Shown piece after piece: positions 43,999-60,454 of a stretch of 64,000 nucleotides of DNA (position 1 is the first letter of the stretch; each line of letters opens with the position of its first letter). Under the pieces are notes generated by a model. That model was not told the origin of the DNA and did no database searches. It saw only the letters and a list, made by a program, of their open reading frames with translations. Source of the stretch: Nitrosophilus kaiyonis (GTDB lineage: Bacteria > Campylobacterota > Campylobacteria > Campylobacterales > Nitratiruptoraceae); contig NZ_AP025696.1 of assembly GCF_027943725.1 (NCBI RefSeq), positions 597,501 to 661,500 on the forward strand, written 5' to 3'. Position numbers and translations under genes: made by a program.

Positions 43999-45178
43999 TT
44001 TTTTCTCCAAAAGCCAAAACTTTAAAATATTTTAACATCCACCATACAAATAAAACTATCCATAGAGTTGCACTTATATCAAAAAATGGGGAAATTTTCC
44101 CAAAATAAGCCATTATGCTAAATATAACTCTTCCTAATATCACAATTTGAGTAAAATAGAAAATATAAACTGTAACTCTATCAACGATAAGCATATTGCC
44201 AGAATGCCCCAAAGTTACTCTTGTTCCAAAGCCTATAAGAATTGTTGTTAAAAAACCAAGAGCTAAAAGATGTATAGGAAGTTGAAAGCTATAAATTCCA
44301 TAAAATTTTTCAAAAAACTCTATTAAACTTCCTATAAACAAAGCAGCAGGAAGCCAAAAAATACTTATATGAAGTATCCAAAGAAGTGGCTCTTTATTTG
44401 GAAAAGGAAGTTTTATCTTTTTTAACTCATTTGCTATTAAGATTGCAGCTATTAAATCAATTAAAAAAAGAGCCTTTGGATATAGATTGTATAAAAATGA
44501 GTGGAGCAAAAAGAGAGTAAAAATTTCAATATGTAGATATCTATTTTTTTCCCAATTCATTACATGAGAAAAAAATGGCACCATTCTAAAAGCAACGACA
44601 AAAGCTAAAAATATTAAATAAAGATATATTCCAAAATTAATAGCTGTATCATAAATAATATTTGATTTGCAGCTGCAAGGTATGTAGGATAATAAAAAGA
44701 AAATATTAGATATTGCCCCAACTCCAATAGCTACAATAAGCCAATATTGGTCATTTTTTGGAAGAGTACATACTTTATAAATAGAGTAAAACTCTTTTAG
44801 AGTTAAAGCAAAACTAATAGCCATAAAAATTGCAGCAGCAAAAAAAGCAAGATTTAGCCAAATAGATACAAAAAAGCTAACAGTTGCTAATAGATTAAAT
44901 AGAAAAACCATTAAATATTTTCTTGGGTGTATCGGAAATGTTCCTGAAAATCTTGGAAAAGTTGTATATAAAAAACCTAAGAAAAAATTTGTAAAAACTA
45001 AAAAAATCATAGAATAGCTATGAAAAAATTTGGCATCTATACCAAAAATTCCTTTGTATGCAGGAATGAATAACAGCATTGAAATAATTGCATTAATAAT
45101 CCCTAGAGTAAAAAATGGTTGATGGGGTTGAGAGAAAAAATAGTCTCTTTTTGAGAGTTTTTCAGTTGAAAATTGCAT
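43991..45178 (-). CDS. NnrS-family heme-copper membrane protein
   Basis: This 395-residue protein has about 12 hydrophobic segments. HQPFFTLGIINAIISMLLFIP near residue 19 and the FRMVPFFSHVMNW segment near residue 199 are typical of NnrS. FGTRVTLGHSG near residue 320 is the most conserved stretch. NnrS contains heme and copper and protects against nitric oxide-related stress in denitrifiers. This fits a nitrate- or oxygen-using chemolithotroph. It is divergent from the efflux tetR gene. Confidence 0.9.
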   Translation of the reverse strand: MQFSTEKLSKRDYFFSQPHQPFFTLGIINAIISMLLFIPAYKGIFGIDAKFFHSYSMIFLVFTNFFLGFLYTTFPRFSGTFPIHPRKYLMVFLFNLLATVSFFVSIWLNLAFFAAAIFMAISFALTLKEFYSIYKVCTLPKNDQYWLIVAIGVGAISNIFFLLSYIPCSCKSNIIYDTAINFGIYLYLIFLAFVVAFRMVPFFSHVMNWEKNRYLHIEIFTLFLLHSFLYNLYPKALFLIDLIAAILIANELKKIKLPFPNKEPLLWILHISIFWLPAALFIGSLIEFFEKFYGIYSFQLPIHLLALGFLTTILIGFGTRVTLGHSGNMLIVDRVTVYIFYFTQIVILGRVIFSIMAYFGKISPFFDISATLWIVLFVWWMLKYFKVLAFGEKIA

Positions 45179-45254
45179 ATAGACTCCTAAAATTTTTGAA
45201 AAAGTATAACCAAATTACAAAAATTTTAACTTGATTTTAAGCAAAAAATATTTA

Positions 45255-45274
45255 TACTTACTAAACGGTAAGTA
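45255..45274. promoter_or_regulatory. Operator-like palindrome before the efflux tetR
   Basis: TACTTAC-TAAACG-GTAAGTA is a perfect 7-bp inverted repeat with a 6-base spacer, ending 10 bases before the tetR ATG. This is a typical TetR-family autoregulatory site. It overlaps the Shine-Dalgarno area of the gene. Confidence 0.6.
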
Positions 45275-45284
45275 AGGAAAAGGT

Positions 45285-45896
45285 ATGAGTAAAAAAGAAG
45301 ATATCTTAAAAGTAGCTGCACAGCATTTTTCAAAATTTGGATATAGTGGTGTATCTTTAGACTCTATTGCTAAAGAGGTAGGTATAACAAAAGCAGCAAT
45401 ATATTACCATTTTAAGGATAAAGCAAATCTATATGAAGGAGTTTTGCTTTTTAGACTTGAAAATCTTGTTAAATTTATTGAAAAGAAAATTACATCAAAA
45501 GATCCTCAAAATAGATTGAAAGAGTATATTGAAGGTTTTGGCGAATTTTTACAAAACTATCCATGTTTTGCTGCAATCTTGGCTCATGAGTTTGCAGATA
45601 ATGGAAAAAATATGAGCGATAAGGCAGTAAAAGAGTTATCAAAAACACTAAATTTATTAACTTCCATTTTAAATGATGGAATAAAAAAAGATATTTTTGA
45701 GATTAGCAATCCTATGGTTGTTCAAATGATGATAGTTTCAACTCTTATTATGCATCAAACAACAAAAAATTTAAGAAAAAGAGTAACAGATTTTATAGAA
45801 GGCTATGAAATATTGCCTGAACCAGATATAAAAGATATCTCAAAAATTGTTGCAAAAAAAATATTAAAGGCTATAGAGCATTTTGAAAAATTATAA
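45285..45896 (+). CDS. TetR-family repressor of the RND efflux operon
   Basis: This 203-residue protein has the HTH KEDILKVAAQHFSKFGYSG, then LDSIAKEVGITKAAIYYHFKDK (residues about 4-48), and a helical ligand domain. It is the first gene of the tolC-MFP-RND operon and has a palindrome at its own start. Repression of the pump, lifted by a toxic compound, is the probable logic. AGGAAAAGG precedes the ATG. Confidence 0.92.
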   Translation: MSKKEDILKVAAQHFSKFGYSGVSLDSIAKEVGITKAAIYYHFKDKANLYEGVLLFRLENLVKFIEKKITSKDPQNRLKEYIEGFGEFLQNYPCFAAILAHEFADNGKNMSDKAVKELSKTLNLLTSILNDGIKKDIFEISNPMVVQMMIVSTLIMHQTTKNLRKRVTDFIEGYEILPEPDIKDISKIVAKKILKAIEHFEKL

Positions 45897-45905
45897 GGAA
45901 GGATT

Positions 45906-47174
45906 ATGAAAAAATTACTTATTTTTTCACTTGTAGGAGTTTTGTTAAATGCAAGTGAATTAAGTGAGCTTTTTAAAGAGTTAAAGAAAAAACCTGTAAC
46001 CAAGATAGATGAAGAGTTGGTAAAGATTACAAAATTAAAAAAGCAAAAAGTTATTGATGAGCTATATCCATCAATTAATCTTTTTGCAACATATGAGCAC
46101 TATACAAAATATACAAATCTTCGTCCTGTCCCACCACCAGAGGCCAACTCTTTAATAGCTCATAAAGAGGCTTTGCCATTTGCAAAGGATATAAGAAGAG
46201 TTGGGGCAAGTTTTGATATGCCTCTTTTTGTAAAAGAGCTTTTTACTTTGCAAGATAAATTAAATCATATCATTAAAAGTGCAGAATACAAAAAAAATAT
46301 AGATATTTATAAAAATGAAGCCATAATTTTAGCAAGCTATGCAAATCTAAACTATCTAAAAGAGCTTGAAAATACACTAATTGCAAGGGAAAAATCATTA
46401 AATAAAACATATGAAGATTTAAAGATAAAAGTAGATAGTGGAAGAGCTGCTCCAATTGCTCTTGATAAGATTGAAAGCGCAATTGATTCAATAAAGATTA
46501 CTTTGCAAAAAATAAAAACAAATGAAACTTTGGCAAAAGAGAAAATTGCATCTTTAGTTGGAAGGGAACCAAAAAATATTACTAAAATTGAGCAGATAAA
46601 TAGTTTAAATACCAATAGTTTTTATACATTAAAACCATTAAAAGAGCAATTAAATGCTGCAAAATATGATTTAAAAGCAAAAAAGGAAAAATTTTTGCCA
46701 AAGCTATTTTTAAGTGGCAAATATACGCAAAATTATGCAGATGAAGATGTTATGTTTGATAAAAGTATAAATACAGGTTATGGAAATATTTTATTAAAAC
46801 TTGTTATTCCTATCTCTAAAAGCAAATTTACAGATATAGAGATATCAAAAAGAGAGCTTATACAAAAAAATGAAAACTTAATAAAAACGCAGATTGAATT
46901 AAAAGCAAAAGCAAAATCTTTAAAAAATCAGTTAAAAATATATAAAAATATGCAAAAGATAGCTCATCAAAAAGTAAAAAGGCAAAAAGAGCTTTTAAGA
47001 TATGCAAAAACTGCCTTTGATGTTGAAAGGATTACAGAAGAGGAGTATCTAAGATATGAAGATAATCTACTACAAGCTCAAGCAGAGCTATCTCAAATAA
47101 AAGCAAAATATTGGCAGACTTTAGCTCAGCTTGCAGTAATTTATGGAAATGATTTAGAAAGGATTGTAAAATGA
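45906..47174 (+). CDS. TolC-family outer-membrane efflux protein
   Basis: This 422-residue protein has a signal peptide (MKKLLIFSLVGVLLNA) and long alpha-helical coiled-coil halves (residues about 110-210 and 300-415) typical of TolC. SGRAAPIALDKIESAIDSIK near residue 178 matches the conserved repeat pattern. It forms the exit duct of the tripartite pump. It follows tetR by 9 bases and overlaps the adaptor gene by 4. Confidence 0.88.
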   Translation: MKKLLIFSLVGVLLNASELSELFKELKKKPVTKIDEELVKITKLKKQKVIDELYPSINLFATYEHYTKYTNLRPVPPPEANSLIAHKEALPFAKDIRRVGASFDMPLFVKELFTLQDKLNHIIKSAEYKKNIDIYKNEAIILASYANLNYLKELENTLIAREKSLNKTYEDLKIKVDSGRAAPIALDKIESAIDSIKITLQKIKTNETLAKEKIASLVGREPKNITKIEQINSLNTNSFYTLKPLKEQLNAAKYDLKAKKEKFLPKLFLSGKYTQNYADEDVMFDKSINTGYGNILLKLVIPISKSKFTDIEISKRELIQKNENLIKTQIELKAKAKSLKNQLKIYKNMQKIAHQKVKRQKELLRYAKTAFDVERITEEEYLRYEDNLLQAQAELSQIKAKYWQTLAQLAVIYGNDLERIVK

Positions 47175-48262
47175 AAAAATGGCTTAAAATACTGATTTTT
47201 TTGGTGATTATTGTGCTTTTAATTGTTGGTGCGGTTAGACTAGTTAAAAAGAAAAAAGCTCAGCTTGCATCTACTCCTATTGCTAAAGAGTATGCTGTAG
47301 TTGTAAAAACATTTAAACCTATTAAAAAGAGTCTAACTCTTACAACTTCTTATATATCATTAGTTAAAAATGATATAAACAGTGTAGTTTCTTCAAAATT
47401 TCCTGGGAGAGTTTTATATGTAAAAAAAGAAGCAGATTTAGTTAAAAAGGGAGATGTTGTAGCAAAAATAGATGATACAAATCTAAAAACAAAACTAAAC
47501 TCACTAAATTTACAAATAGAATCAACAAAAAATGAAATCTCTTCAACAAAGACTATCTTAAATAATCTTTATAAAATTCATGAAAGAACGCAAAAACTTT
47601 TAAAGGTAAAAGGTGCTTCAATCGAGCAGTATGAAAAAGAGCAAAACCAAATAGAAGCTACAAAAGCAAAATTATCAAACTTACAAGCAAAATTATCAAG
47701 CTTAAAAGAAAGCATAAAAGAGATAAAAAATGAGCTAACTTATGCAACTTTAAAAGCAAATATTGATGGAGTTGTAGCAAAGCAGTTTTTACATATTGGC
47801 GATTTAGCAATGCCAGGACATCCAATATTGAAGATAAACTCAGATAAAGGAAATTATCTTTTAGTTAGAGTTCCAAAAGATATAGATATTTTTGGAGTAG
47901 TTTATAAAAATAAAATATTTCCTGTAAAAAAGCTAAATTCTACATTTAACTCATTAAATGAGTATAGAGTTGATGTTAAAGATAAAGATTTAGTTGAAGG
48001 TCAAAGAGTAGATATTGATGTTATTACTTATAAAGGAGAAGCAATTTTACTTCCAAAAGACACTATTTTAAATAGAGATGGAAAAAGCTATGTTTTAGTA
48101 GTAAAAGGTGATAAGGCTGAGCCAAAAGAGATAAATATAGTTACAAACTCTCAAGATGGAGTTGTAGTAAAAGAGGATTTAGAGGGTGTTAAATTGGTGG
48201 TTGCAAAACCAGATATTTTATTGAAATTATTGAGTGGAATAAAATTGAAAGAGACTAAATAG
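47171..48262 (+). CDS. RND efflux periplasmic adaptor (MFP) subunit
   Basis: This 363-residue protein has one N-terminal membrane anchor (LKILIFLVIIVLLIVGAV). A lipoyl-like half is GRVLYVKKEADLVKKGDVVAKID near residue 78. A coiled-coil hairpin covers residues about 100-195, and the second lipoyl half is LKANIDGVVAKQFLHIGDLAMPGHPILKI near residue 196. It links the RND pump to the TolC-like duct. Confidence 0.9.
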   Translation: MKKWLKILIFLVIIVLLIVGAVRLVKKKKAQLASTPIAKEYAVVVKTFKPIKKSLTLTTSYISLVKNDINSVVSSKFPGRVLYVKKEADLVKKGDVVAKIDDTNLKTKLNSLNLQIESTKNEISSTKTILNNLYKIHERTQKLLKVKGASIEQYEKEQNQIEATKAKLSNLQAKLSSLKESIKEIKNELTYATLKANIDGVVAKQFLHIGDLAMPGHPILKINSDKGNYLLVRVPKDIDIFGVVYKNKIFPVKKLNSTFNSLNEYRVDVKDKDLVEGQRVDIDVITYKGEAILLPKDTILNRDGKSYVLVVKGDKAEPKEINIVTNSQDGVVVKEDLEGVKLVVAKPDILLKLLSGIKLKETK

Positions 48263-48357
48263 TAATTAGTAATTGGTGTATTGGTTATTAGTATTTATTA
48301 AGATTTTTTGAGATTTTTAAAACCAATATACCAATACACTAATACACTAATAACCAA
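48260..48357. repeat. Heptad-periodic inverted-repeat element before the RND gene
   Basis: The left arm has TAGTAAT twice, then TGGTGTA, TTGGTTA, TTAGTAT. The right arm (48320-48357) has CCAATAT, ACCAATA, CACTAAT, ACACTAA, TAACCAA. The arms are complementary over about 35 bases with a short T-rich loop. It ends before AAAAGGATATTTAAATG, the start of the RND gene. Confidence 0.65.
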
Positions 48358-48371
48358 AAAAGGATATTTAA

Positions 48372-51300
48372 ATGTTTGAATATTTTTATAAAAGACCATA
48401 TCTACTATTTAGCTTGATTGTTGGCTTTTTTGTGATGGGGATTATTGGTTTAAAATCTCTTCCTAAAAATCTATTTCCTGATGCAAATAGACCGCAAGTT
48501 GTGGTAATTACTTCAATTCCAGGAGCTACTGCAGAGGTTGCTGCAAGTACTGTTAGTAAGCCAATAGAAGAGGAGATTAGTAGAATCAGCCTTGTTAGAG
48601 ATGTATCAAGCATAAATGTTGCAAACTTTTCTATAGTAAAGGCTGAATTTGAATATGAAAAGGGGCTTGAAGCAGCTGCAGTGGATGTAGCAAATGCTTT
48701 GTCTATAGCTAAAAGTAAACTACCTAAAAATGCAAATCCATCTATTTATACAGTTGGAGATTTTACGCTTCCTGTTGAAGTTGTAGCACTCTCTCCAAAA
48801 AATAAAAATATAAGTTTAGCGGAGATTAGAAAGATTGCAGAATCGCATATAAAACCATATCTCTTAGCAAATCCTCATATAGGAAATGTTGAGGTTTTTG
48901 GCGGGTATCAGAGTGCGATAAATATAGAAGTTGATCCATTTAAAGCAAAAAAATATGGTATTAGTTTTGATAATTTAGCAAAAGCTCTTTTTGCAATCAA
49001 TAAAGATATTCCTATTGGTTTTACTAAAAGTAAAGATAGCTTTTATACTGTTACATTTTATGGTGAAAAAGATAATATTGAAAAATTAAAAAATATTAAT
49101 ATCTTGCCAAATGTAAAACTAAGTGACATTGCAAAAGTTAGCTGGAGTTATAAAAAAAGAACAAGTGGCTATCTTGGAAATGGAAAAAATGCAATTGCCT
49201 TGTCTATTCAGAGAGCTCCAGCTGGAAGTGTTTTAGATGTTAGTGATGCTGCAAGAATAGAGATTGAAAAACTAAAAAAGCTATATCCAAATATAGATTT
49301 TCAAATAGCTGACACTCAAAGGGATTTAATAGAGACTGCAAATACTAATATGCTTGAAGCTTTAAGAGATGCAATTATCTATACCCTTTTAGTACTACTT
49401 TTCTTTCTTGGAAATTTTAGAGCTATAATTGCTGCTGGTATTTCTATACCACTTGTTTTCTTTGGAACTATAGCAATTATTTGGCTAACTGGAGGTGAAT
49501 TAAATATTGTTATCTATACAGCAATAATTCTTGCTCTTGGAATGCTGGTAGATGATGCAGTTGTTGTTCTTGAAAATATTGAAAGGCATCTTGAGCTTCA
49601 CGAAGATATGCAAACAGCTATCATTAAAGGGACAAAAGAGGTTTTAGGACCTGTATTTGCAGGAACAGTTGGTACAATTGCTATTATTTTTCCACTGATG
49701 TTCGTTGGAGACTTTCCACAGCATATATTTAGACCGCTTATTTCAACACTAATTATTGCTCTGCTTGTGAGCTATTTTTTATCTATTACATTTATTCCAA
49801 GATTTTCTGCTGTCCTTTATAAAAATGGAACAGGCAAAACAAAGATAGAAAAATGGTTTGAAAAGGTTTATGAAAATTCATTGGGACTTTTAATTGGTCC
49901 ATATCTTAGCGTTATAAAATTTTCTAATGGAAAATGGTGGGCGCTAAGAAGAATGCTTTTAACTGCTGCAGTTGTTTTAACTTTTATATTGAGTTTAAAA
50001 AATGTAATGCCTCTTATTGGCAAAGATGTAATGCCTCCTATGGATACAGGAATTATTAAAGCGCAAGTTGCTTTTAGTGCAAATGAGACAGTTGATGATG
50101 CTGAAAAAAAACTTAAAAAGTTTCTAACTTGGCTTCATAAACAGCCTTGGGTAAAAACAAGCTCTGTTGCTTTTGGTAGTGAATCTGGAGTTTTAAGCCT
50201 TGGAAGTGGAAATCTTCCAACTGAAGCAACAATTACAATAAATGCTGTAAATAGATTTGAAAGAGATAAGAGTATTTGGGAGCTTGAAAATATTATTAGA
50301 GATGAAATTGCAAAACTTCCTGGAGTTAAGAAAAATGATGTATTTGATTTTGGAGCAACAGCTCTTTCTACTATAAAAGCGCCACTTGATATAAGAATAA
50401 AAGCAGCCGATTATGAAAAACTACCAGACATTGCAAAAGAGATAATTGATGAAATTAAAAATATAAAAGGATTAACCTCTATTAGCCAAAGTTGGGATAA
50501 AGATTTTAGTGAAGTAGAAATAAAAATAGATACAAACAAAGCTTTAAGCTATGGTATAACACCACTTCAAATTGCTATGCAAATCCCAATTAAAGGTCAA
50601 ATTGTGTCACTTGCAGCAGATATGGCTACTATGAATACACAATTTGTAAGACTATATCTAAAAGGAAAATTTAATGAAAATATACAAAATATAAAACTTC
50701 TTCCAATAAAAACAAAATTTGGTGAAATTCCACTTGCTGAGTTTGCAAAAATCTCTTATAAATTAACTCCAGCTAAAATTGAAAGAGATAAGCTTTTATA
50801 TAGTGTAGATGTAAATGGATATAGATCAAAAAGAGCTGTTACTCATATTACAGAAGATGCCAATAATGCTTTAAAAAATGTAGATACAACGGGATTTATA
50901 GTAACACAAGAAGGAGATATAGCTCAACTAAATGATAGCTTTAAAAGAATGATAAAAGCGATATCAATAGGTGTAATTATTTTAATAATGACATTAACTG
51001 CTATATATGAATCTGTTCGTCTTGCAATTATTATGATTTTGGTATTGCCACTTTCTATGATAGGGGCTGCTTGGGGCATGATGCTATTTGACAAACCAAG
51101 CTGTATGCCAAGTATGGTGGGACTTTTGCTTCTATTTGGAATAATTATAAAAAATGCAGTTTTATTAATTGACTTTTATAAAGAGTATAAAAAAGAGGGA
51201 GAGCCTCCATTTAAAGCTGCTCTAGAGAGTGTTAGAGTCAGATTTAGACCTGTTATGATGACAGCTTTTGGAACAATAGCAGGTATGATTCCAATAGCAT

Positions 51301-51476
51301 TAGAACAAGCAGTTGGGCTTGAGAGACTCTCTCCACTTGCAGATGTGGCAATTGGTGGACTTTTAGTTGGAACACTGCTTACTTTAATCTATGTTCCAAT
51401 GTATGCATATGCAACAGATCCTGATAACAGAAAAACAAATCCTATAGAAAAAGTTGAAGAGTTTATTGAAGAGTAA
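48372..51476 (+). CDS. RND efflux transporter permease
   Basis: This 1034-residue inner-membrane pump has 12 expected helices and two large periplasmic loops. Conserved features are FPDANRPQVVVITSIPGATAE near residue 37 and the proton-relay Asp pair in ALGMLVDDAVVVLENIERH near residue 393. GGLLVGTLLTLIYVPMYAY near the end is typical. Likely role is export of drugs or organic compounds. It belongs to the tetR-tolC-MFP operon, although a repeat element of about 100 bases precedes it. Confidence 0.95.
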   Translation: MFEYFYKRPYLLFSLIVGFFVMGIIGLKSLPKNLFPDANRPQVVVITSIPGATAEVAASTVSKPIEEEISRISLVRDVSSINVANFSIVKAEFEYEKGLEAAAVDVANALSIAKSKLPKNANPSIYTVGDFTLPVEVVALSPKNKNISLAEIRKIAESHIKPYLLANPHIGNVEVFGGYQSAINIEVDPFKAKKYGISFDNLAKALFAINKDIPIGFTKSKDSFYTVTFYGEKDNIEKLKNINILPNVKLSDIAKVSWSYKKRTSGYLGNGKNAIALSIQRAPAGSVLDVSDAARIEIEKLKKLYPNIDFQIADTQRDLIETANTNMLEALRDAIIYTLLVLLFFLGNFRAIIAAGISIPLVFFGTIAIIWLTGGELNIVIYTAIILALGMLVDDAVVVLENIERHLELHEDMQTAIIKGTKEVLGPVFAGTVGTIAIIFPLMFVGDFPQHIFRPLISTLIIALLVSYFLSITFIPRFSAVLYKNGTGKTKIEKWFEKVYENSLGLLIGPYLSVIKFSNGKWWALRRMLLTAAVVLTFILSLKNVMPLIGKDVMPPMDTGIIKAQVAFSANETVDDAEKKLKKFLTWLHKQPWVKTSSVAFGSESGVLSLGSGNLPTEATITINAVNRFERDKSIWELENIIRDEIAKLPGVKKNDVFDFGATALSTIKAPLDIRIKAADYEKLPDIAKEIIDEIKNIKGLTSISQSWDKDFSEVEIKIDTNKALSYGITPLQIAMQIPIKGQIVSLAADMATMNTQFVRLYLKGKFNENIQNIKLLPIKTKFGEIPLAEFAKISYKLTPAKIERDKLLYSVDVNGYRSKRAVTHITEDANNALKNVDTTGFIVTQEGDIAQLNDSFKRMIKAISIGVIILIMTLTAIYESVRLAIIMILVLPLSMIGAAWGMMLFDKPSCMPSMVGLLLLFGIIIKNAVLLIDFYKEYKKEGEPPFKAALESVRVRFRPVMMTAFGTIAGMIPIALEQAVGLERLSPLADVAIGGLLVGTLLTLIYVPMYAYATDPDNRKTNPIEKVEEFIEE

Positions 51477-51486
51477 AGGAGTGAAA

Positions 51487-51852
51487 ATGCAAACACCTAG
51501 ACCTGAACAAGTTATGAATATGATGAAAGAGCGCTTTGGAAAGTTGCCAAAGTCGATAGAAGATGCGGCAAAAGTTGATCCATCTTTAATAGTTGAGCAA
51601 GCTATTAGCTCAAAGCTTAGTATGCAAAGTGAAAAAAATACTCTCGATCCAAAAACAAGTACATTAATATTTTTAGCGGCTGCTTTGGCTCTTGGAAGCG
51701 AAGAGTGTGTAGAACTTAATACAAAAGCTGCTAAAAAAATGGGCGCAACAAATGAAGAGATACTCTCAGTCATCCGCATAGTTCGTCATGCAGCAGCAAG
51801 TAGTGTTGTTGGAGTAGCTGATGCTGCACTAAAAAATCTAAAAGAAGAGTGA
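51487..51852 (+). CDS. Carboxymuconolactone decarboxylase/AhpD-like protein
   Basis: This protein of about 121 residues has the CMD fold with LDPKTSTLIFLAAALALGSEECVELNTKAAKKMGATNEEILSVI near residue 55. The catalytic CxxC of AhpD is not present; only one Cys is seen in SEECVEL. So alkyl-hydroperoxide-linked redox activity is doubtful. The start MQTPRPEQ has GGAG upstream and follows the RND stop by 10 bases. Co-transcription with the pump is likely. Confidence 0.8.
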   Translation: MQTPRPEQVMNMMKERFGKLPKSIEDAAKVDPSLIVEQAISSKLSMQSEKNTLDPKTSTLIFLAAALALGSEECVELNTKAAKKMGATNEEILSVIRIVRHAAASSVVGVADAALKNLKEE

Positions 51853-51880
51853 TAACTCTTCTTTTTAAAAAGAGATATAA

Positions 51881-52771
51881 ATGGGATATCACCATCATCA
51901 CCATGTAGAAGGTAAAAATCTTTTTATCACCATTATCTTAAATATTATCATTACACTCTCCCAAATAGTGGGTGGAATATATGCAAACTCTTTATCACTT
52001 CTTAGTGATGCTATGCATAATCTGAGTGATGTTCTTACTTTAGTTATTGCATGGGCCGCAAATAAAATAGCTAAAAAACCATCAACTAAAAGCTATACTT
52101 TTGGCCTAAAAAGAGCAGAGATAATTGCAGCTTTGTTTAATGCCTCACTGCTTCTTGGGATTGCTATTTTTTTAATAGTAGAATCATTTCATAAATTTTT
52201 TTATCCACAAAGTGTTGATTCATTATGGGTTATTTGGCTTGGAATTTTAAGTATCCTTTTAAATACTCTTAGTGTTTTATTTGTCAAAAAAGATTCAGAA
52301 AAAAATATTAATATAAAAGCTGCCTATTTACATCTTTTAACAGATGTTTTTACATCTATTGCTGTTGTAATAGGTGGTTTACTTATGCAGTTTTATAAAA
52401 TCTACTGGGTCGACCCAGCTATTTCTCTTTTAATAGCTTTTTATCTGATATTTGCTTCAATTGATATTATAAAAGAATCTATCACTATTTTGATGGAGTT
52501 TGCTCCAAAATCTATAGATATAGAAAAGATTGCAGATGAAGTAAAAAAGATAAAAGAGGTGGAGAACATTCATCATATCCATATCTGGAGATTGGGAGAG
52601 CATGATATTTTTTTAGAAGCACACATCGATTTTAAAAAAAATCTATCTTTAAAAGAGGTAACACAAATAATTATTGATATAGAGAAACTTCTTTTTAAAA
52701 AATTTCATATTTCTCATGTCACATTACAGCCAGAGTTTCAAAGAGAAGATAATAAAGCTATAGTGGTTTAA
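51881..52771 (+). CDS. Cation diffusion facilitator (CzcD/ZitB-type) metal exporter
   Basis: This 296-residue protein has six membrane helices and a cytosolic C-terminal domain. The N-terminus is MGYHHHHHVEG with five consecutive His. The metal site lies in SLLSDAMHNLSDVL near residue 38 and AYLHLLTDVFTSIAVVIGG near residue 148, typical HxxxD pairs. IHHIHIWRLGEHDIFLEAHI near residue 227 is the C-terminal domain signature. It likely exports zinc or cobalt using protons. Confidence 0.93.
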   Translation: MGYHHHHHVEGKNLFITIILNIIITLSQIVGGIYANSLSLLSDAMHNLSDVLTLVIAWAANKIAKKPSTKSYTFGLKRAEIIAALFNASLLLGIAIFLIVESFHKFFYPQSVDSLWVIWLGILSILLNTLSVLFVKKDSEKNINIKAAYLHLLTDVFTSIAVVIGGLLMQFYKIYWVDPAISLLIAFYLIFASIDIIKESITILMEFAPKSIDIEKIADEVKKIKEVENIHHIHIWRLGEHDIFLEAHIDFKKNLSLKEVTQIIIDIEKLLFKKFHISHVTLQPEFQREDNKAIVV

Positions 52772-53055
52772 AAGTTATTTTTATGTACTAAAAGAAAAAA
52801 AGAATTTTGATGTATGTTTGAGAAGTTTTGATAATGATAAATGAAAGGGCATAAAAATAGGGTTTTAATAGATATTCAAGCTTATGCAAAAAATAAATTA
52901 AAAGTTATGAATATCAAATTCAAAAACAGATAGCATAAATAAGACTAGAGTATGGCTTACAAAATAAGAATTTGAAGCTAAATATATTTAGGGAGGCCTG
53001 TTAAATCTCATGTATTATTTCAAAGGTGTAAAAATTAAGGAGATAAAATTATAAA
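52772..53055 (+). promoter_or_regulatory. Gap before the iron operon with a Fur-box-like site
   Basis: This 284-base gap holds no convincing gene. GATAATGATAAATG at 52830-52843 resembles two GATAAT-type Fur hexamers and lies upstream of the FeoAB operon. AAGGAG stands at 53038-53043. Some short frames are present but lack start signals and recognisable similarity, so they could be decayed sequence. Fur control is inference. Confidence 0.35.
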
Positions 53056-53802
53056 ATGGGTAACGAGATTATTTATTATGCAATATACTTTTTTTTAACA
53101 TTGGTTCTTTCTACTCTTTTTGCAATGGGTGGAGTTGGAAGTGCTATAGCATTGGTGCCAGTGCTTCACTTTTTTGGATTGGAATTTAATCTATCTAAAG
53201 CAATTGGACTTTTTGTAAATACCTCAACAACTGTTACTGCAACTATTATGAATTTAAAAAGAAAAGTTTTAGATATTAAATTTGCTTTTCCACTTGCTAT
53301 ATCTTTAGCATTTGCTGCTCCAATTGGAGCATACTTTTCGAAAATTGTGCCAGAAAGCTTTGTAAAGATTATATTTATTGCTTTTTTGTTTTTTGCAGGT
53401 AGTATGTTACTTTTTGGAAGAAAGGAGCAAAAATTTCATTATGTCAAAATATGGGTATTGATAGTTTTAGGATCTATTGTAGGAGTTATAAGTGGGCTTT
53501 TAGGTGTTGGTGGTGGAAGTTTGCTTATGCCAATACTGATACTTCTTGGATTTGATGCTAAAAAAGTAGCTATTGCTATGAGCTTTGTGATTCCTTTTTC
53601 AACTTTTAGTGCATTTTTAACATATCTTAGTTTTGTAGAAATTGATTGGCTACTTTTGTTTATTGTAACAATTGCAGCAATTTTAGGTGGATATATAGGC
53701 AATTATATAATGCATTTTCACTTAAATCAAAAACATATAAAAAAGATTATAGGATTCTTGTTATACTTAATAGGAATAAAAATGATTTTTAGACTGGTTT
53801 AA
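53056..53802 (+). CDS. TauE/SafE (TSUP) family permease
   Basis: This 248-residue membrane protein has about eight helices. TSUP repeats show as LSKAIGLFVNTSTTVTATIMNLKR near residue 48 and GLLGVGGGSLLMPILILLGFDAKKVAIAMSFVIPFSTFSA near residue 147. The family moves sulfur compounds or other anions. Its location at the head of the feoAB operon, with no sulfur genes, suggests another substrate or a metal-linked role (inference). Confidence 0.88.
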   Translation: MGNEIIYYAIYFFLTLVLSTLFAMGGVGSAIALVPVLHFFGLEFNLSKAIGLFVNTSTTVTATIMNLKRKVLDIKFAFPLAISLAFAAPIGAYFSKIVPESFVKIIFIAFLFFAGSMLLFGRKEQKFHYVKIWVLIVLGSIVGVISGLLGVGGGSLLMPILILLGFDAKKVAIAMSFVIPFSTFSAFLTYLSFVEIDWLLLFIVTIAAILGGYIGNYIMHFHLNQKHIKKIIGFLLYLIGIKMIFRLV

Positions 53803-53811
53803 AGGTAAAAA

Positions 53812-54231
53812 GTGAGATTTTTAAATAAACTTATAGACTCTTTTAAAAATTTTTTCAAAATATCTCCAATGATTTTAGCTGTTATAGGGCTTATAGGAAT
53901 TTTTAAAGTTTTTATAACACCTGATATACTTTCATCACTTTTTACTAAAAATCCTATACTTGATACATTTATAGGACTATTTACTGGGGCTATTGCTGTT
54001 GGGCAGGCTCTTATTAGCTATATTTTAGGGGGAGAGTTATTAAATAGTGGTATATCTTTATATGGAGTAACTGCATTTATTTTAGCCTGGGTTACTCTTG
54101 GAATTGTGCAGCTTCCTCTTGAAGCAAGTGTCCTTGGTGCTAAATTTACAGTTTTTAGAAATATATTAGCACTTATTTTTACATTTTTAATAACTTTAGC
54201 AACAGTTTGGACATTAAAGTTTTTACAATGA
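53812..54231 (+). CDS. Half-size permease (UPF0718/ArsP-like), first
   Basis: This 139-residue protein has four likely helices. The segment GAIAVGQALISYILGGELLNSGISLYGVTAFILAWVTLGIVQLPLEASVLG resembles the repeat of ArsP_1/UPF0718 permeases (G...YxxxxxLxxxGxxxxxAF). It begins with GTG and ends as TGA overlapping the next ATG. It probably pairs with the next half-size permease. Family placement is moderate in confidence. Confidence 0.6.
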   Translation: MRFLNKLIDSFKNFFKISPMILAVIGLIGIFKVFITPDILSSLFTKNPILDTFIGLFTGAIAVGQALISYILGGELLNSGISLYGVTAFILAWVTLGIVQLPLEASVLGAKFTVFRNILALIFTFLITLATVWTLKFLQ

Positions 54232-54719
54232 GAGGGATTAGATTTCTGTTTTTAGTAGTTTTAGTTTATATTTTACTATTTTATTTTTTTCCACAAAAGA
54301 GTTTATTGGCTTTAAAAGAGTCATTTTCTGTTTTAATAAAAATTTTGCCTATTTTATTGGTAGTTATATTTTTTAATGCACTAATAAATTATTTTTTTAA
54401 ACCTAAAAAACTCTCTTATCATCTATCAAAAGATAGGGGAATAAAAGCTTGGATTATAGCTTTAATTGCAGGTATTTTAAGTCATGGCCCTATGTATGCG
54501 TGGTATCCATTGATAGAGGATTTGAAAAAAAAGGGGCTTAGAGACTCCCTTATTGCAATGTTTTTTTATGCAAGGGCAGTAAAACTTCCTATTTTGCCTT
54601 TAATGATTCATTATTTTGGGCTAAAGTTTGCTATAGTATTAAACATATATATTATCATTGGAGCAGTTTTACAAGGTATGATCGTTGAAAAAATAGAGAA
54701 AGGAAAAGAGTGGGTTTAG
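54228..54719 (+). CDS. Half-size permease (UPF0718/ArsP-like), second
   Basis: This 163-residue protein has four or five helices. GILSHGPMYAWYPLIEDLKKKGLRDSLIAMFFYARAVKLPILPLMIHYFGLKF repeats the pattern of the preceding protein. The ATG overlaps its stop (ATGA), so the two are made together and could form a heteromeric permease. A TTG at 54207 would give a longer overlapped form and is less likely. Substrate unknown. The Feo neighbours point to metals. Confidence 0.6.
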   Translation: MRGIRFLFLVVLVYILLFYFFPQKSLLALKESFSVLIKILPILLVVIFFNALINYFFKPKKLSYHLSKDRGIKAWIIALIAGILSHGPMYAWYPLIEDLKKKGLRDSLIAMFFYARAVKLPILPLMIHYFGLKFAIVLNIYIIIGAVLQGMIVEKIEKGKEWV

Positions 54720-55024
54720 AATATTGCTATCCTTTAAAAGAGGGTGAAATATTAAATGAAGATAAAGATTATCCACTTTTTGAAGTGACTATTCATGGAA
54801 GTGATGTTGAGAGAGTGAAATTATCAAAAAGATTGGTTTGTGCTGTGAAACATCTGCCTTTGAGGTTGAAAATTCATTATGAAAAAGATCCTTTAAAATC
54901 TATTGAGATAGGCGTAGCAAAAGATCCAACACTTACACTTAATGATAAGATTTTGTTAGAAGGACTTGTAAGTTCAGAAGAGATAACAAAAACTTTTGAA
55001 AATCTCCTTGAAGAGAAAAAATGA
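54710..55024 (+). CDS. Small thioredoxin-fold-like protein without CxxC
   Basis: This 104-residue protein starts at GTG 54710, overlapping the permease by 10 bases. Its second half (EIGVAKDPTLTLNDKILLEGLVSSEEITKTFENLL) follows the C-terminal pattern of small thioredoxins of the thioredoxin_3 type. The redox CxxC is missing; Cys occur only at residues 6 and 44. The first half contains LPLRLKIHYEKD. It may bind metal or regulate the permease (inference). It overlaps feoA by 4 bases. Confidence 0.5.
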   Translation: MGLEYCYPLKEGEILNEDKDYPLFEVTIHGSDVERVKLSKRLVCAVKHLPLRLKIHYEKDPLKSIEIGVAKDPTLTLNDKILLEGLVSSEEITKTFENLLEEKK

Positions 55025-55266
55025 GCCAAAAAAAACTTTCCCAAATGAAACCAAAAGAAAAAGGCATAATTAAAAAAATAGGTAATATTGGAGAGCTTAA
55101 AGATAGATTATTGGAGCTTGGAGCATTAACAAAAACACCAATAGAAGTAGTTCGTATAGCTCCATTTGGTGATCCAATTGAGCTTAAAATTGGAAATACC
55201 CATATAGCTATTAGAAAAAGTGAAGCAAAAAAAATAGAAGTAGAGACCTTTAAGGAAAGATATTGA
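55021..55266 (+). CDS. feoA: Ferrous iron transport protein FeoA
   Basis: FeoA is a small SH3-like protein that supports FeoB. The 81-residue protein has LSQMKPKEKGIIKKIGNIGELKDRLLELG and then APFGDPIELKIGNTHIAIRKSEA, matching the family. The start overlaps the preceding gene by 4 bases. The stop overlaps the feoB TTG start. The six-gene unit from 53056 to 57380 is one operon by spacing. Confidence 0.9.
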   Translation: MSQKKLSQMKPKEKGIIKKIGNIGELKDRLLELGALTKTPIEVVRIAPFGDPIELKIGNTHIAIRKSEAKKIEVETFKERY

Positions 55267-57380
55267 TAACAATAGCTTTTGTTGGAAATCCAAATACTGG
55301 AAAAACTGCACTAATCAATGCGATAGCTGGTAGCGATTTACAAGTTGGAAATTGGCCTGGAGTAACAGTTGAAAAGAAAGAGGTAACTTTTATATATGAA
55401 AACGAAACAATTCATCTTATTGACTTACCTGGAGCCTATACATTAACACCCTACTCTCTTGAAGAAAAAATCACAAGAGATGTTATCTGCTCACAAAAAA
55501 TTGATGGAATAATTGATGTTATAGATACAACCGATATTAGAAGAAATCTCTATCTTACATTAGAACTTATAGATATGCAAAAACCTCTTGTATTAGCACT
55601 TAATATGTTTGATGAATTCACAAAAAGAGGATATGAGCTTGATATAGAAAAACTGCAAAATATTCTTGGAATTCCTTGTGTACCTACAATTGGCTCAAAG
55701 GGCATTGGAACAAAAAAACTTATAAAGAAAAGTTTTGAAGCTATTAAAAATAAAACTTTACCAAAAATAGTTCCTTATCAAGAGCATATTGAAAAAGAGA
55801 TAGATTTTTTAATAAAAAGAATGGAAAATGAAGATTGCAAACTTAAAAGATTTTTTGCCATCAAACTCTTAGAAAATGATGAGTTTGCAATTAAAAGAGT
55901 AAAAAGGATGGATCCAAGCGTAATAGAGGCTGCAATAGAAGCAAGAAAAAGATTAGAAAAACATTTCAAAATGAGCGTAAAAGAGTTTATTGTTCAAGAT
56001 AGATATCAAAAAATAGACAAGATTTTAGATAAGATATTAAAAAAGCCATTGATTGATAGAGTTCTTTTAAGTGATAAGATAGATAATTTAGTTTTAAATA
56101 GATGGTTTGGTCTTCCTATATTTTTTATTATGATGTTTTTAATGTTTAAAATAACATTTGATGGAAGCTCTCCATTTGTAGATTGGATGGGGGGATTTTT
56201 TGAAAATTTTATATCTCCGCATCTAAGAGCAGTTATGATAAATTTTCCTCCTTGGTTTAGCTCTTTGATAGTTGATGGGCTTGTTAGTGGTGTAGGACTT
56301 GTTCTATCTTTTTTGCCTCTTTTAACATTTTTATACTTTTTTATGGCTGTTTTGGAAGAGAGCGGTTATATGGCAAGGGTTAGCTTTTTATTGGATAGAT
56401 TGGCTGCAGGTCTTGGAATAAAAGGAAATGCTTTTATATCTTTGATTGTTGGTTTTGGATGTAATGTTCCAGCTGTATATTCAACAAGAACAATGAGCAC
56501 TTTAAGAGAAAGAGTTATAGCTACTTTAATGATTCCATTTATGAGTTGCAGCGCAAGACTTCCTGTATATGCACTTTTTACTTCTTTATTTTTTACTTCA
56601 CATCAAGCAATTATTATTTTTTCATTATATTTTCTTGGAATTATAGTAGCTTTTATAACAGCTTTTTTAGCGAACAAACTTCTTCCAAAAACTCAAGCTA
56701 AGCCTTTTTTTATAGAGCTTCCAACATATCACATGCCAACATGGAGCGCTATTTGGGTTTTGATGTGGCCAAGACTTAAAGACTTTATAGTTAGAGCTGG
56801 AACTGTGATAGTAGCAGCTTCTATGATTCTTTGGGCTATTATAAATCTTCCACCATCTTCTACTCCTCAAACATCCTATTTAGCTCAGATTTCAAAAAAG
56901 ATTACACCAATATTTAAGCCTGTAGGATTTGGTGAGCATTGGGAGCCAGTGGCTGCTTTGATTCCTGGAACTTTGGCAAAAGAGGTAGTAATTGGTTCAC
57001 TTGGTACAATTTATGGAGTTGAATCTACTCAAAAACCTATAGCAAAAGGAGAAGTTTTAAACGATTTAATTGATCAGATTAAAAGTTTATATAACGCTTT
57101 TTTAGAATCTATAAAAAATCTTTTTTCTATAGAAGTAACTACATTAAAAACAGAAAAACAGCCATCAAATCTGCAACAAAAAATAAAAAATCAGTTTACT
57201 CCATTAGGAGCATATAGCTATCTTGTTTTTGTTCTTTTATATATTCCTTGTGTTTCAACTATGGCTGCTATTAAAAATGAGTTTGGATGGGGCTTAATGA
57301 TATTTGAAATACTCTTTTTGCCAATAATTGCATATATTGTATCATTTATGATTTATAATTTTGCAATTATATTTTTATAG
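55263..57380 (+). CDS. feoB: Ferrous iron transporter FeoB
   Basis: FeoB imports Fe2+. The 705-residue protein has an N-terminal G domain with G1 GNPNTGKTALINAI near residue 8, G3 DLPGAYTLTPYS near residue 55 and G4 NMFDEF near residue 119. The membrane part has two Gate domains, seen as ESGYMARVSFLLDRLAAGLGIKGNAFISLIVGFGCNVPA near residue 364 and a second CSARLPVYALF. GTLAKEVVIGSLGTIYGVE near residue 572 is conserved. It starts with TTG (AAGGAAAGATA upstream). A linker near residues 600-640 is long. Confidence 0.95.
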   Translation: MITIAFVGNPNTGKTALINAIAGSDLQVGNWPGVTVEKKEVTFIYENETIHLIDLPGAYTLTPYSLEEKITRDVICSQKIDGIIDVIDTTDIRRNLYLTLELIDMQKPLVLALNMFDEFTKRGYELDIEKLQNILGIPCVPTIGSKGIGTKKLIKKSFEAIKNKTLPKIVPYQEHIEKEIDFLIKRMENEDCKLKRFFAIKLLENDEFAIKRVKRMDPSVIEAAIEARKRLEKHFKMSVKEFIVQDRYQKIDKILDKILKKPLIDRVLLSDKIDNLVLNRWFGLPIFFIMMFLMFKITFDGSSPFVDWMGGFFENFISPHLRAVMINFPPWFSSLIVDGLVSGVGLVLSFLPLLTFLYFFMAVLEESGYMARVSFLLDRLAAGLGIKGNAFISLIVGFGCNVPAVYSTRTMSTLRERVIATLMIPFMSCSARLPVYALFTSLFFTSHQAIIIFSLYFLGIIVAFITAFLANKLLPKTQAKPFFIELPTYHMPTWSAIWVLMWPRLKDFIVRAGTVIVAASMILWAIINLPPSSTPQTSYLAQISKKITPIFKPVGFGEHWEPVAALIPGTLAKEVVIGSLGTIYGVESTQKPIAKGEVLNDLIDQIKSLYNAFLESIKNLFSIEVTTLKTEKQPSNLQQKIKNQFTPLGAYSYLVFVLLYIPCVSTMAAIKNEFGWGLMIFEILFLPIIAYIVSFMIYNFAIIFL

Positions 57381-57390
57381 ATTTTTGCTT

Positions 57391-57966
57391 TTAAACTTTC
57401 TCTTTTTTTAACTCTTTAAAAACATATATAGTTGCTGTAACTATTACAAATCCAAGCAGTAAGAGGCTAAACCATATCTCGGCACTATGTGCCTCTTTTC
57501 CTTTACCAAAAATATAACCAATTAAAAGCATAAATCCAACCCAGATTATATTTGCCAAAAATGTTAAAGGAATAAATCTATAAAGTGGCATATGGGATAT
57601 TCCTGCAGGTATTGATATATATTGTCCAAGTCCAGGTGTTAAAGGGGCTAAAAAAACAGAGATATTTCCATGATGTTTGAAAAATAGAATCGTTTTTTGG
57701 ATAATTTTTTTATCTTTATATCTACGAATAATCCATTTAGCAAGATAGTAGTTTATAAGTGCTCCGCTAAGACTTCCAAAAGCTCCACTTATCAATAATA
57801 AAAAAAAGTTTTTTTGGCCAATGCTTGCTAAATAGCCAGAAGGAATCAGAATTATCTCACTTGGAACGGGGATAAATGTTCCTACAAGAAGCATATATAA
57901 ATAAATTCCAAAATATCCAAGTGAATCTGCTAAATGAATTAGAAATTGAATAATTTGCTCTATCAA
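57391..57966 (-). CDS. DedA-family membrane protein
   Basis: This 191-residue SNARE-associated (DedA/VTT) protein has the hallmark GTFIPVPSEIILIPSGYLA near residue 28 and FGSLSGALINYYLAKW near residue 63. FFKHHGNISVFLAPLTPGLGQYISIPAGISHMPLYRF near residue 92 is the most conserved stretch. DedA proteins flip lipids or keep membrane potential. It is convergent with feoB (10-base gap) and overlaps the ferritin-like/VIT gene by 4 bases. Confidence 0.93.
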   Translation of the reverse strand: MIEQIIQFLIHLADSLGYFGIYLYMLLVGTFIPVPSEIILIPSGYLASIGQKNFFLLLISGAFGSLSGALINYYLAKWIIRRYKDKKIIQKTILFFKHHGNISVFLAPLTPGLGQYISIPAGISHMPLYRFIPLTFLANIIWVGFMLLIGYIFGKGKEAHSAEIWFSLLLLGFVIVTATIYVFKELKKEKV

Positions 57967-58817
57967 ATCTCTATTCCTAAATATTTATTTACAAAATATC
58001 CTATAATAAAAGATATTAAAGCAACACCAAATGTGATTAAAAACATCTCCCCTACTCTTTTTTTGAAATTCTCATCTTTTGCAACAGATATATAAAAATT
58101 ATAAAAAAGAATAGAGACAACTGCTCCAATAAACATAAAAACAAGAGCAACTTTAGCACTTTTTATTAAGAAAAAAGGTGAAACTAAAATAGCTGTAGTT
58201 AATATATATGCAAATCCTGTGTATATTGCATATTTTTTTGGCTCAATTGTGCTGTCTGCATTTTCTCTAGCTTCCAAATAGGCACTTCCAGCCATTGAAA
58301 GTGATGCTGCTATACCCATTATCATTCCAGTTATTCCTACATATTTTGCGTTATCAAATGCTAAAGCAATACCTGTTAATGTTCCAGTAAGCTCAACTAA
58401 TGCATCATTCATTCCAAGAACAACTGCTCCAGCATATAAAAGTTTTTGGTCATTTAACATATTTAAAAGTTTTATTTCATGTGTTTTTTCATCTTCATAT
58501 ATTTTTTTTGCCTGTGGATATTTTAATATCAACTTTTTGTAAAAATCTTCAGCTTTTTCCTCATTTTTTTCAAGAAGTTTCAAAGTAAAAGAGATACCAA
58601 AAAGTTTTGCTAAAAAAATATACATTAAAATTAGCCATTTTTGAGGTTTTAAATCTTTTTTTGTTATTTTTTTCCAAAATTCATAATGAGACTTTTCTTG
58701 CAAGGCAATCTCTTGTAAAATCTTTTTATTATTTTTATTCTTTTGAAGTTTTGAAAGCTCCATATATAAAAAGAAGTCATTTATCTCATTTTGTTGCTGT
58801 TTTAAAGCTTCCATCAT
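57963..58817 (-). CDS. Ferritin-like plus VIT1/CCC1 fusion (MbfA-type iron/manganese exporter)
   Basis: The N-terminal 125 residues form a rubrerythrin-like helical domain with ExxH pairs in ALQEKSHYEFWKK near residue 42 and YEDEKTHEIKLLNML near residue 108. From residue 130 a VIT1/CCC1 membrane domain follows: LGMNDALVELTGTLTGIALAF and AASLSMAGSAYLEAREN. Related MbfA proteins export iron under high-iron or peroxide stress. It sits across from the FeoAB importer. The start (AGGA upstream) overlaps cobB by 32 bases. Confidence 0.88.
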   Translation of the reverse strand: MMEALKQQQNEINDFFLYMELSKLQKNKNNKKILQEIALQEKSHYEFWKKITKKDLKPQKWLILMYIFLAKLFGISFTLKLLEKNEEKAEDFYKKLILKYPQAKKIYEDEKTHEIKLLNMLNDQKLLYAGAVVLGMNDALVELTGTLTGIALAFDNAKYVGITGMIMGIAASLSMAGSAYLEARENADSTIEPKKYAIYTGFAYILTTAILVSPFFLIKSAKVALVFMFIGAVVSILFYNFYISVAKDENFKKRVGEMFLITFGVALISFIIGYFVNKYLGIEI

Positions 58818-59771: not shown

Positions 59772-60206
59772 TTAAAAATTATCAATTTTTTTGAATAATT
59801 CCAAAGAAGATAGAGTTTTTATATCACTATTTTTAAAATCTTTTTTGTTATTTGTGATTATAAATTTACAATCTTCTTTTTTTGCACAAACATATTGTAA
59901 AGCATCTTCAAAATCTAAAAATTTCTTATTTTTACAGAGAATTATTACTATATCTAAATCTGCTTTATCAATATATACAATTTTATAAATTTTTAAAAGA
60001 TTTTCTATGATATTTAAAACATTTTCAAACTCTAATTTATATCTATTTTTTAGGATATAAAAAATATTGGTTATCATATCTGAACTGATATAAAGTTCAT
60101 ACTCTTTTTCTAATAAATATTTTATTATCTCTTTAGAATATATATGATTTTTTCTATCTTTAGAAAAGATATCTAAAATAATATTTGCATCAATAAAAAT
60201 TCTCAT
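59772..60206 (-). CDS. PIN-domain RNase toxin (VapC-like)
   Basis: This 144-residue PIN protein has the first acidic residue in RIFIDANIILDIF, LDFEDALQYVCAKKEDC near residue 97 (Glu/Asp), and CKFIITNNKKDFKNSDI near residue 113. PIN toxins cleave RNA. It overlaps the antitoxin gene by 4 bases, the usual type II toxin-antitoxin layout. Confidence 0.85.
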   Translation of the reverse strand: MRIFIDANIILDIFSKDRKNHIYSKEIIKYLLEKEYELYISSDMITNIFYILKNRYKLEFENVLNIIENLLKIYKIVYIDKADLDIVIILCKNKKFLDFEDALQYVCAKKEDCKFIITNNKKDFKNSDIKTLSSLELFKKIDNF

Positions 60207-60454
60207 ATTAATTCTTGGATTTTTTTATCTTTAAAAATATCTTTTTCAATTATATCTGAAATATCTTCTAATGCTTTTAATTTTTCATTTTTTGAAATAG
60301 CCTCTTTTTTTAGAAAACTCTCTACTGCATTATATACAATTTGACTCTTTTTTTGATTAGTTTTTTTAGAAAAATCCTCTATCATATCTACAATATATTT
60401 TGGCAATGTAAAAGTTACTCTAACCCTTTTTGTTTTATCAACTAAAGTTGCCAT
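60203..60454 (-). CDS. Ribbon-helix-helix antitoxin
   Basis: This 83-residue protein has the RHH pattern RVRVTFTLPKYIVDMIEDFSKKTNQKKSQIVYNAVESFLKKEA (residues about 10-53). The C-terminal tail is probably the part that binds the PIN toxin. It is first in the operon, as usual for antitoxins that repress their own promoter. The upstream gap (60455-60666) is shared with sufB. Confidence 0.85.
   Translation of the reverse strand: MATLVDKTKRVRVTFTLPKYIVDMIEDFSKKTNQKKSQIVYNAVESFLKKEAISKNEKLKALEDISDIIEKDIFKDKKIQELI

Follow-up and report, generated by a model that had tools for sequence, protein, structure and literature searches.

Reactive-sulfur (persulfide) gene clusters combine a rhodanese with an exporter of the TauE/TSUP type. 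For the ArsP permeases, one survey gives the motif C(S/T)C for all ArsPs of the ars operons that it covered (PMC4435449), and members with four transmembrane segments (4-TMS) are mentioned in passing in a superfamily study (PMC7176098). Second copies of FeoB, such as FeoB2 of Porphyromonas and FeoB2 of Magnetospirillum, are tied to oxidative stress or to manganese in PMC8749426. Here we describe a locus that can be compared with all of these. It lies in a stretch of 64,000 nucleotides from the 1.77-Mb, single-contig genome of Nitrosophilus kaiyonis, probably a vent-type bacterium (NCBI RefSeq assembly GCF_027943725.1, contig NZ_AP025696.1, positions 597,501 to 661,500 of the forward strand), which we call the window and number from its first letter, and it consists of six genes at 53056-57380 that encode a TSUP permease, two half-size permeases, a thioredoxin-fold protein, FeoA and FeoB. 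The whole is made of known families in a combination for which no published description was found in the accessible parts of the literature outside subscription papers.

As the initial annotation had claimed, all six genes are tightly linked on one strand (+), with spacings from TSUP to FeoB of 9, -4, -10, -4 and -4 bases. The gene for the TSUP (TauE/SafE) permease (53056..53802; PF01925 E 9.4e-41, 140.5 bits against a cut-off of 32.6) is followed by those for the first half-permease, here HC (53812..54231, GTG start; ArsP_1 positions 171-290 at E 2.6e-4, family alignment), and the second, here HN (54228..54719, ATG start; ArsP_1 E 1.4e-10, family alignment; motif SHGPxYxWYP...YARxxKxP). Next come the gene for the thioredoxin-fold protein, here TRX, which has no CxxC (54710..55024, GTG start; Thioredoxin_3 E 3.4e-4, below the cut-off), feoA (55021..55266; PF04023 E 2.3e-21, 76.1 bits against a cut-off of 23) and a feoB of a second, non-housekeeping clade (55263..57380, TTG start; TIGR00437 E 7.8e-184, 612.7 bits against a cut-off of 315.65). 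The FeoB_N domain of the window FeoB scored 201.6 bits against a cut-off of 27, and all canonical Feo domains are present. The block is probably transcribed as a single unit; no known RNA or riboswitch was found in 45000-57600 at the gathering threshold, anti-phage models gave no match, and the number of promoter-like matches within it was at chance level. The six genes form the 3' terminus of a longer island, in the order TetR-TolC-MFP-RND-CMD-CDF-(dead rhodanese)-TSUP and onwards, that runs from about 45285 to 57380. We hold this anatomy of block and island with high confidence. For its function, we give about an even chance to a joint reading in which the block makes up the downstream section of a mobile stress island for metals and reactive sulfur, equipped with a split exporter, a TRX carrier and a second FeoAB system.

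The two half-permeases had been described as alike and coupled, and both points held: the proteins are homologous (hhalign probability 96.5%, E 9.9e-10, 130 columns) and their genes overlap by 4 bases. The ArsP_1 score of HN was 41.3 bits, above the Pfam cut-off of 32.3, and that of HC 20.7 bits, below it; all 25 HN family members matched ArsP_1 at E 0.01 or better. HN aligns equally well to either half of a full-length ArsP and HC best to the second half. The conserved residues of HN are polar and aromatic (S85, H86, Y90, W92, Y93, R116 and K119) and those of HC are D51, S69, E75 and Q100, while the C(S/T)C motif of ArsP occurs in none of the 25 HN and 26 HC sequences. The invariant R116 and K119 of HN hint at an anion rather than a cation as substrate.

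To follow the pair beyond the window, genes of relatives were taken from simple longest-ORF (open reading frame) calls, by which some genes were mis-called in GC-rich genomes, and the later tallies were made with tblastn. HN was found at E 1e-38 or better in 24 of 298 genomes of the phylum, Campylobacterota, and in all 24 of them tblastn placed HC no more than 0.5 kb from HN, with the order of the pair kept. A scan of one genome per species gave 213 HN relatives, and the results rest on the best 80 of these, which come from Campylobacterota, Desulfobacterota, ANME and other Methanosarcinales archaea, Zixibacteria, Elusimicrobia and WOR-3, with most of the named ones in the first two phyla; among 297 genomes of the phylum to which a Desulfuromonadaceae locus belongs, 26 gave a match at 1e-15. 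At 108 loci outside the first set, which include a few repeat loci from one genome (e.g. L220, L142; labels in G and L are our own for genomes and loci), HC immediately precedes HN in 101 and is fused to it in none of these (tblastn); two of the remaining seven are at a sequence end. The pair also occurs on a Thermococcus plasmid, as two overlapping 'permease' genes in a heavy-metal cluster (ArsR-family regulator, metal P-type ATPase, permease, permease). A tree of 62 rows unites all HN, that of the Thermococcus plasmid pair included, in one clade (95/97); in the same tree the HC rows nearly form a clade, needing two changes, and long branches meet. The suggestion that the half-permeases act as partners is thus borne out by an obligate pairing, at 101 of 108 loci and in 24 of 24 genomes. 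By these sequence comparisons, HC-HN is an ancient two-gene pair and not a broken gene, and the two proteins probably form a complex as the subunits of one transporter. A recent split or frameshift of an ArsP gene was considered and is ruled out by the 101 paired loci of 108 and the deep tree.

The genes around the pair are varied. In other taxa the neighbours of HN belong to scattered families, with a few cases each of FeoA/FeoB, Nitro_FeMo-Co, radical SAM and rubrerythrin and no single partner; this neighbour scan covered 116 of the 131 listed neighbours, a strand and gap filter having removed some genes earlier. At six archaeal and bacterial loci (L143, L157, L164, L162, L183 and L155) the pair adjoins genes for Nitro_FeMo-Co, MinD-type ATPase, radical SAM or MBL-fold proteins, sets which we take to resemble metal-cofactor clusters. 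Two HC-HN pairs stand in tandem at L103 (G316:C8), where they flank a gene of 300 aa, and at L073 (6063-6793, G013) the TSUP gene beside HC-HN is present as two overlapping ORFs, probably through a frameshift. An 'arsenic efflux protein' of the ArsP_2 type lies beside HC-HN at L139 and L171, as does a protein of the same cluster at L144.

The predicted model of TRX (pLDDT 92, pTM 0.82; 17-row family alignment) has the element order E-H-E-H-E-E-H. Its closest solved match by sequence is MTH895 (1ilo; E 4.7e-4), and 1ilo was also the top match when folds were compared (TM 0.57 by query and 0.72 by target, E 2.4e-3). The initial annotation had reported a thioredoxin that lost its redox Cys. The absence of CxxC stands, but it is a trait of the whole family (0/17 members, with the CxxC positions not conserved) and not the decay of a single gene. 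Invariant in the 17-row alignment are, among others, C5, C43, K36, K39, R40, K46, H47, P49, R51, K70 and P72 (numbered without the start Met), and the pattern K.[SA]KR..C..KH.P.R was present at all 21 TRX loci examined. Since a different Cys and basic pattern is conserved where CxxC is not, TRX has been repurposed and is under selection. Of 397 genomes in the phylum 28 carry TRX, and a search for relatives on plasmids gave no match. Single ORFs in which TRX is fused to a rhodanese (L210 and L211, with two different rhodaneses) or to CMD (L209) were also found, for any one of which a draft-assembly error is possible. In the 22 of the 28 TRX genomes that were tallied, the window included and some regions limited by contig ends, the genes within 8 kb of TRX were MFP (membrane fusion protein) in 14, TSUP in 13, RND, CDF and rhodanese in 12 each, CMD in 6 and FeoA in 5. 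Members of the TRX family therefore lie near RND, CDF, TSUP and rhodanese genes more often than near Feo genes.

FeoB was present in all 29 genomes searched, and the N. kaiyonis genome has a housekeeping FeoB elsewhere (G000:C1:1667063-1669027). In a tree of 43 FeoBs two deep groups were resolved, one of 29 rows with exactly one per genome, the housekeeping group, and the other of 14 rows including the window copy. This second clade (SH-aLRT 100) holds all seven TRX- or HN-linked FeoBs of the 29 genomes, and it also takes the three usable HN-linked Campylobacterota FeoBs from the species-wide scan; L116, L142, L171 and L176, which failed a start-motif filter, and a FeoB fragment of G224 were left out of the tree. 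By sequence, then, the block encodes a second Feo system, distinct from that of the housekeeping FeoB. It is predicted to take up ferrous iron; metal specificity can vary among FeoB paralogues. The nearest relative of the window FeoB in the tree (78% identity) comes from another family, which, together with the absence of HC from the four other genomes of the genus, fits horizontal movement; the base composition of the island is about that of the remainder of the window and shows no sign of transfer. Just downstream of feoB, on the opposite strand, are genes for a VTT membrane protein (57963-58817) and a rubrerythrin-VIT1 type protein (57391-57966), the latter presumably similar to known iron exporters, so that genes for Feo import and possible iron export stand end to end.

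Upstream of the six genes, the island begins with a TetR-type regulator (45285..45896, +; ORF matching the TetR-TolC-MFP-RND block beside TRX in relatives), followed by a TolC-like outer membrane efflux protein (45906..47174, +) and the MFP of an RND pump (47171..48262, +), both ORFs of protein clusters common to relatives; the names TetR (with its context), TolC-like and MFP are our assumption for these ORFs. The RND efflux pump itself (48372..51476, +; PF00873 ACR_tran E 1.1e-171) is succeeded by a CMD/AhpD-like protein (51454..51852, +; PF02627 E 1.5e-11), for which relatives point to an internal ATG start, and a CDF cation efflux protein (51881..52771, +; PF01545 E 7.6e-53). The 284-bp gap between CDF and TSUP contains a decayed rhodanese gene (52803..53051, +) with several stops and deletions, detected by tblastn with the rhodaneses of relatives: the L076 protein gave 51 bits (E 9.4e-12 at a database size of 1e6) and the L074 protein 35 bits, for which none of 1000 shuffles scored above 20 bits. 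The intact order CDF-rhodanese-TSUP is present in L290, and in G074, from another family (L291), one strand carries TetR-TolC-MFP-RND-CMD-TRX-FeoA-FeoB-CDF-x-rhodanese-TSUP. G029 has a large version, with CMD, CcdA, a periplasmic thioredoxin, a ferredoxin-type protein, HC, HN, ChrA, a rhodanese and DUF4282, then TSUP, CDF, a potassium channel, Crp, protoglobin, TRX, FeoA and FeoB, where several of the protein names are ones that we presume. At 59772-60454, PIN-like and ribbon-helix-helix-like ORFs with a 4-base overlap look by eye like a toxin-antitoxin pair.

A Fur-like site had also been claimed upstream of the block. The best Fur-box match in the 284-bp gap was 12 of 19, a value equalled by 730 of 1274 stretches of the same size in the window and by 1467 of 2000 shuffles, and GATAATGATAA at 52830, probably the site meant, lies inside the rhodanese remnant. 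The site is thus at chance level and within a decayed gene, and Fur regulation of the block was dismissed as no Fur box rose above chance. Among the terminator-like sites listed for the + strand none falls between CDF and TSUP, which makes read-through from CDF plausible.

Under the stress-island reading we propose a mechanism that we put forward tentatively, as possible rather than probable. Toxic metals, small molecules or sulfur oxyanions would leave the cell through RND, CDF and TSUP. HC and HN may assemble as a heteromeric exporter of the ArsP fold, with one half from each gene, its cargo most likely being a small anionic or thiol-bound compound, if export is indeed the direction. TRX would be a repurposed non-dithiol fold, with the lone C43 in a basic helix and a second Cys near the N-terminus, that may hold or hand over a thiol-bound cargo (a persulfide or a metal or metalloid thiolate) in concert with partners of the rhodanese and AhpD types. 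Through the second FeoAB, Fe2+ would be taken up again where iron centres suffer damage or depletion from sulfide or metals. Efflux, sulfur transfer (rhodanese, AhpD-like CMD) and iron import together would suit a habitat of sulfide, metals and FeS iron starvation. A bolder form of the proposal, in which TRX founds a class of non-redox thioredoxin-fold chaperones that bind a metal(loid)-thiolate or sulfane sulfur at one Cys within a basic pocket and pass it between rhodanese/AhpD-type partners and the half-ArsP exporter, as a route of detoxification coupled to the second ferrous iron importer, we consider doubtful. In favour of the stress island stand the pairing of HC and HN, the genes that surround TRX and its fusions, the rhodanese remnant, the second FeoB clade with its link to HN, and the heavy-metal setting of the Thermococcus pair. 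Several results weigh against a stress island with these parts. The search for the gene order elsewhere met sub-blocks repeatedly, but the exact six-gene order was found in this genome alone among the genomes compared; HC is missing from all four other genomes of the genus, which makes the island dispensable; and the window island has no living rhodanese, though there are six rhodanese matches elsewhere in the genome. In the HN-neighbour tally, which covers the 24 Campylobacterota genomes with a strong HN, 19 of the 24 regions (within 6 kb) had no TSUP, CDF or rhodanese and the neighbours were diverse; with most HN pairs outside such an island, HC-HN may serve a main function other than the island's. 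Among HN-bearing genomes TRX was present in two of three inside Campylobacterota and in none of 15 outside, the Feo link in Campylobacterota is confined mostly to a few lineages, so that its counts are not independent, and no solved structure related to HN was found, either by sequence or by the fold of its model.

The alternative closest to the initial annotation is an iron module, in which HC-HN and TSUP would act on Fe2+ themselves, for instance by forming a channel for iron or a transition metal, and TRX would be a Feo accessory that replaces FeoC. TRX, FeoA and FeoB are indeed contiguous in 4 of the 28 TRX genomes, HC-HN adjoins FeoA-FeoB in G263, G219, G221 and L147, and the reverse order, FeoA-FeoB-HC-HN, occurs at L116, L142 and L171. 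Within the best 80 of the 213 HN relatives FeoB lies within 3 kb of HN at six loci, by tblastn and always on the same strand, where a hand estimate of the chance expectation is about 0.25 for loci that are not phylogenetically independent; the equal length farther out held FeoB at one locus without an inner copy (L184). The link of the half-permeases to Feo therefore recurs, at these 6 of 80 loci, in three further Campylobacterota genomes and in reverse order in other lineages. However, FeoA is within 8 kb of TRX in only 5 of 22 genomes and within 6 kb of HN in only 5 of 24 Campylobacterota genomes, the neighbours of TRX are chiefly efflux and sulfur genes, the Fur site is not above chance, and R116 and K119 of HN hint at an anion and not a cation. 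An iron or transition-metal module thus survives as far as the Feo link goes, but it is not self-contained, being the end of a metal and sulfur stress island, and we regard the iron module as unlikely.

A derived arsenic system, with HC-HN as a split ArsP and TRX as a decayed ArsE-type thioredoxin in (organo)arsenical export, would account for the ArsP_1 homology of both halves. It would also have parallels in the Campylobacter-like genomes of the same order as the window genome, where a full-length ArsP is followed by a small CxxC thioredoxin, and in the ArsP_2 protein beside the pair at L139 and L171 and the same-cluster protein at L144. Yet C(S/T)C is in 0/25 HN and 0/26 HC, as opposed to all ArsPs of the ars operons surveyed in PMC4435449, no ArsR, ArsC or Acr3 was identified within the block, and TRX has a conserved Cys pattern of its own, which is not what decay leaves; we judge this quite unlikely. 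Very unlikely is a loose neighbourhood, a hotspot of unrelated stress genes whose tight spacing would reflect nothing but a compact, AT-rich genome: gene order is fluid across genomes and HC is missing from the genus's other genomes, as it would predict, but the same families surround TRX in several families of the phylum, gene fusions occur, and HC-HN is again joined to Feo, in either order, across more than one phylum.

Read as the end of a metal and reactive-sulfur stress island, the block brings three puzzles into one operon, namely a widespread anaerobe transporter made of two half-genes, the TRX family and a stress-tied second FeoB clade. Against the described systems the likenesses are partial. 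HC and HN each align to the ArsP repeat (PF03773, TC 2.A.119), but they are two separate genes (0/101 fused) instead of two repeats in one protein, and in place of C(S/T)C they have conserved R/K and E/D/Q residues. TRX shares its predicted fold and cis-Pro region with the small thioredoxins of the MTH895/ArsE type (TIGR00412, PF13192, 1ilo), but it lacks CxxC and has the invariant C5, C43 and K36/K39/R40/K46/H47/R51, a Cys pattern that points to carriage and not to dithiol exchange. Like the persulfide clusters, the island has rhodanese and TSUP together; it differs in adding RND, CDF, FeoAB, HC-HN and TRX, and no persulfide dioxygenase or sensor was identified in it. FeoA and FeoB of the window score above curated cut-offs and have the canonical domains of the Feo system, but this FeoB falls in a second, island-linked clade, with the housekeeping FeoB elsewhere. 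As a non-main FeoB it can be likened, by description and not by sequence, to FeoB2 of Porphyromonas and Magnetospirillum, although we met nothing that places those beside half-permeases; here the half-permease pair stands beside FeoAB in both orders and in more than one phylum, which would tie this exporter family to iron in sulfidic habitats.

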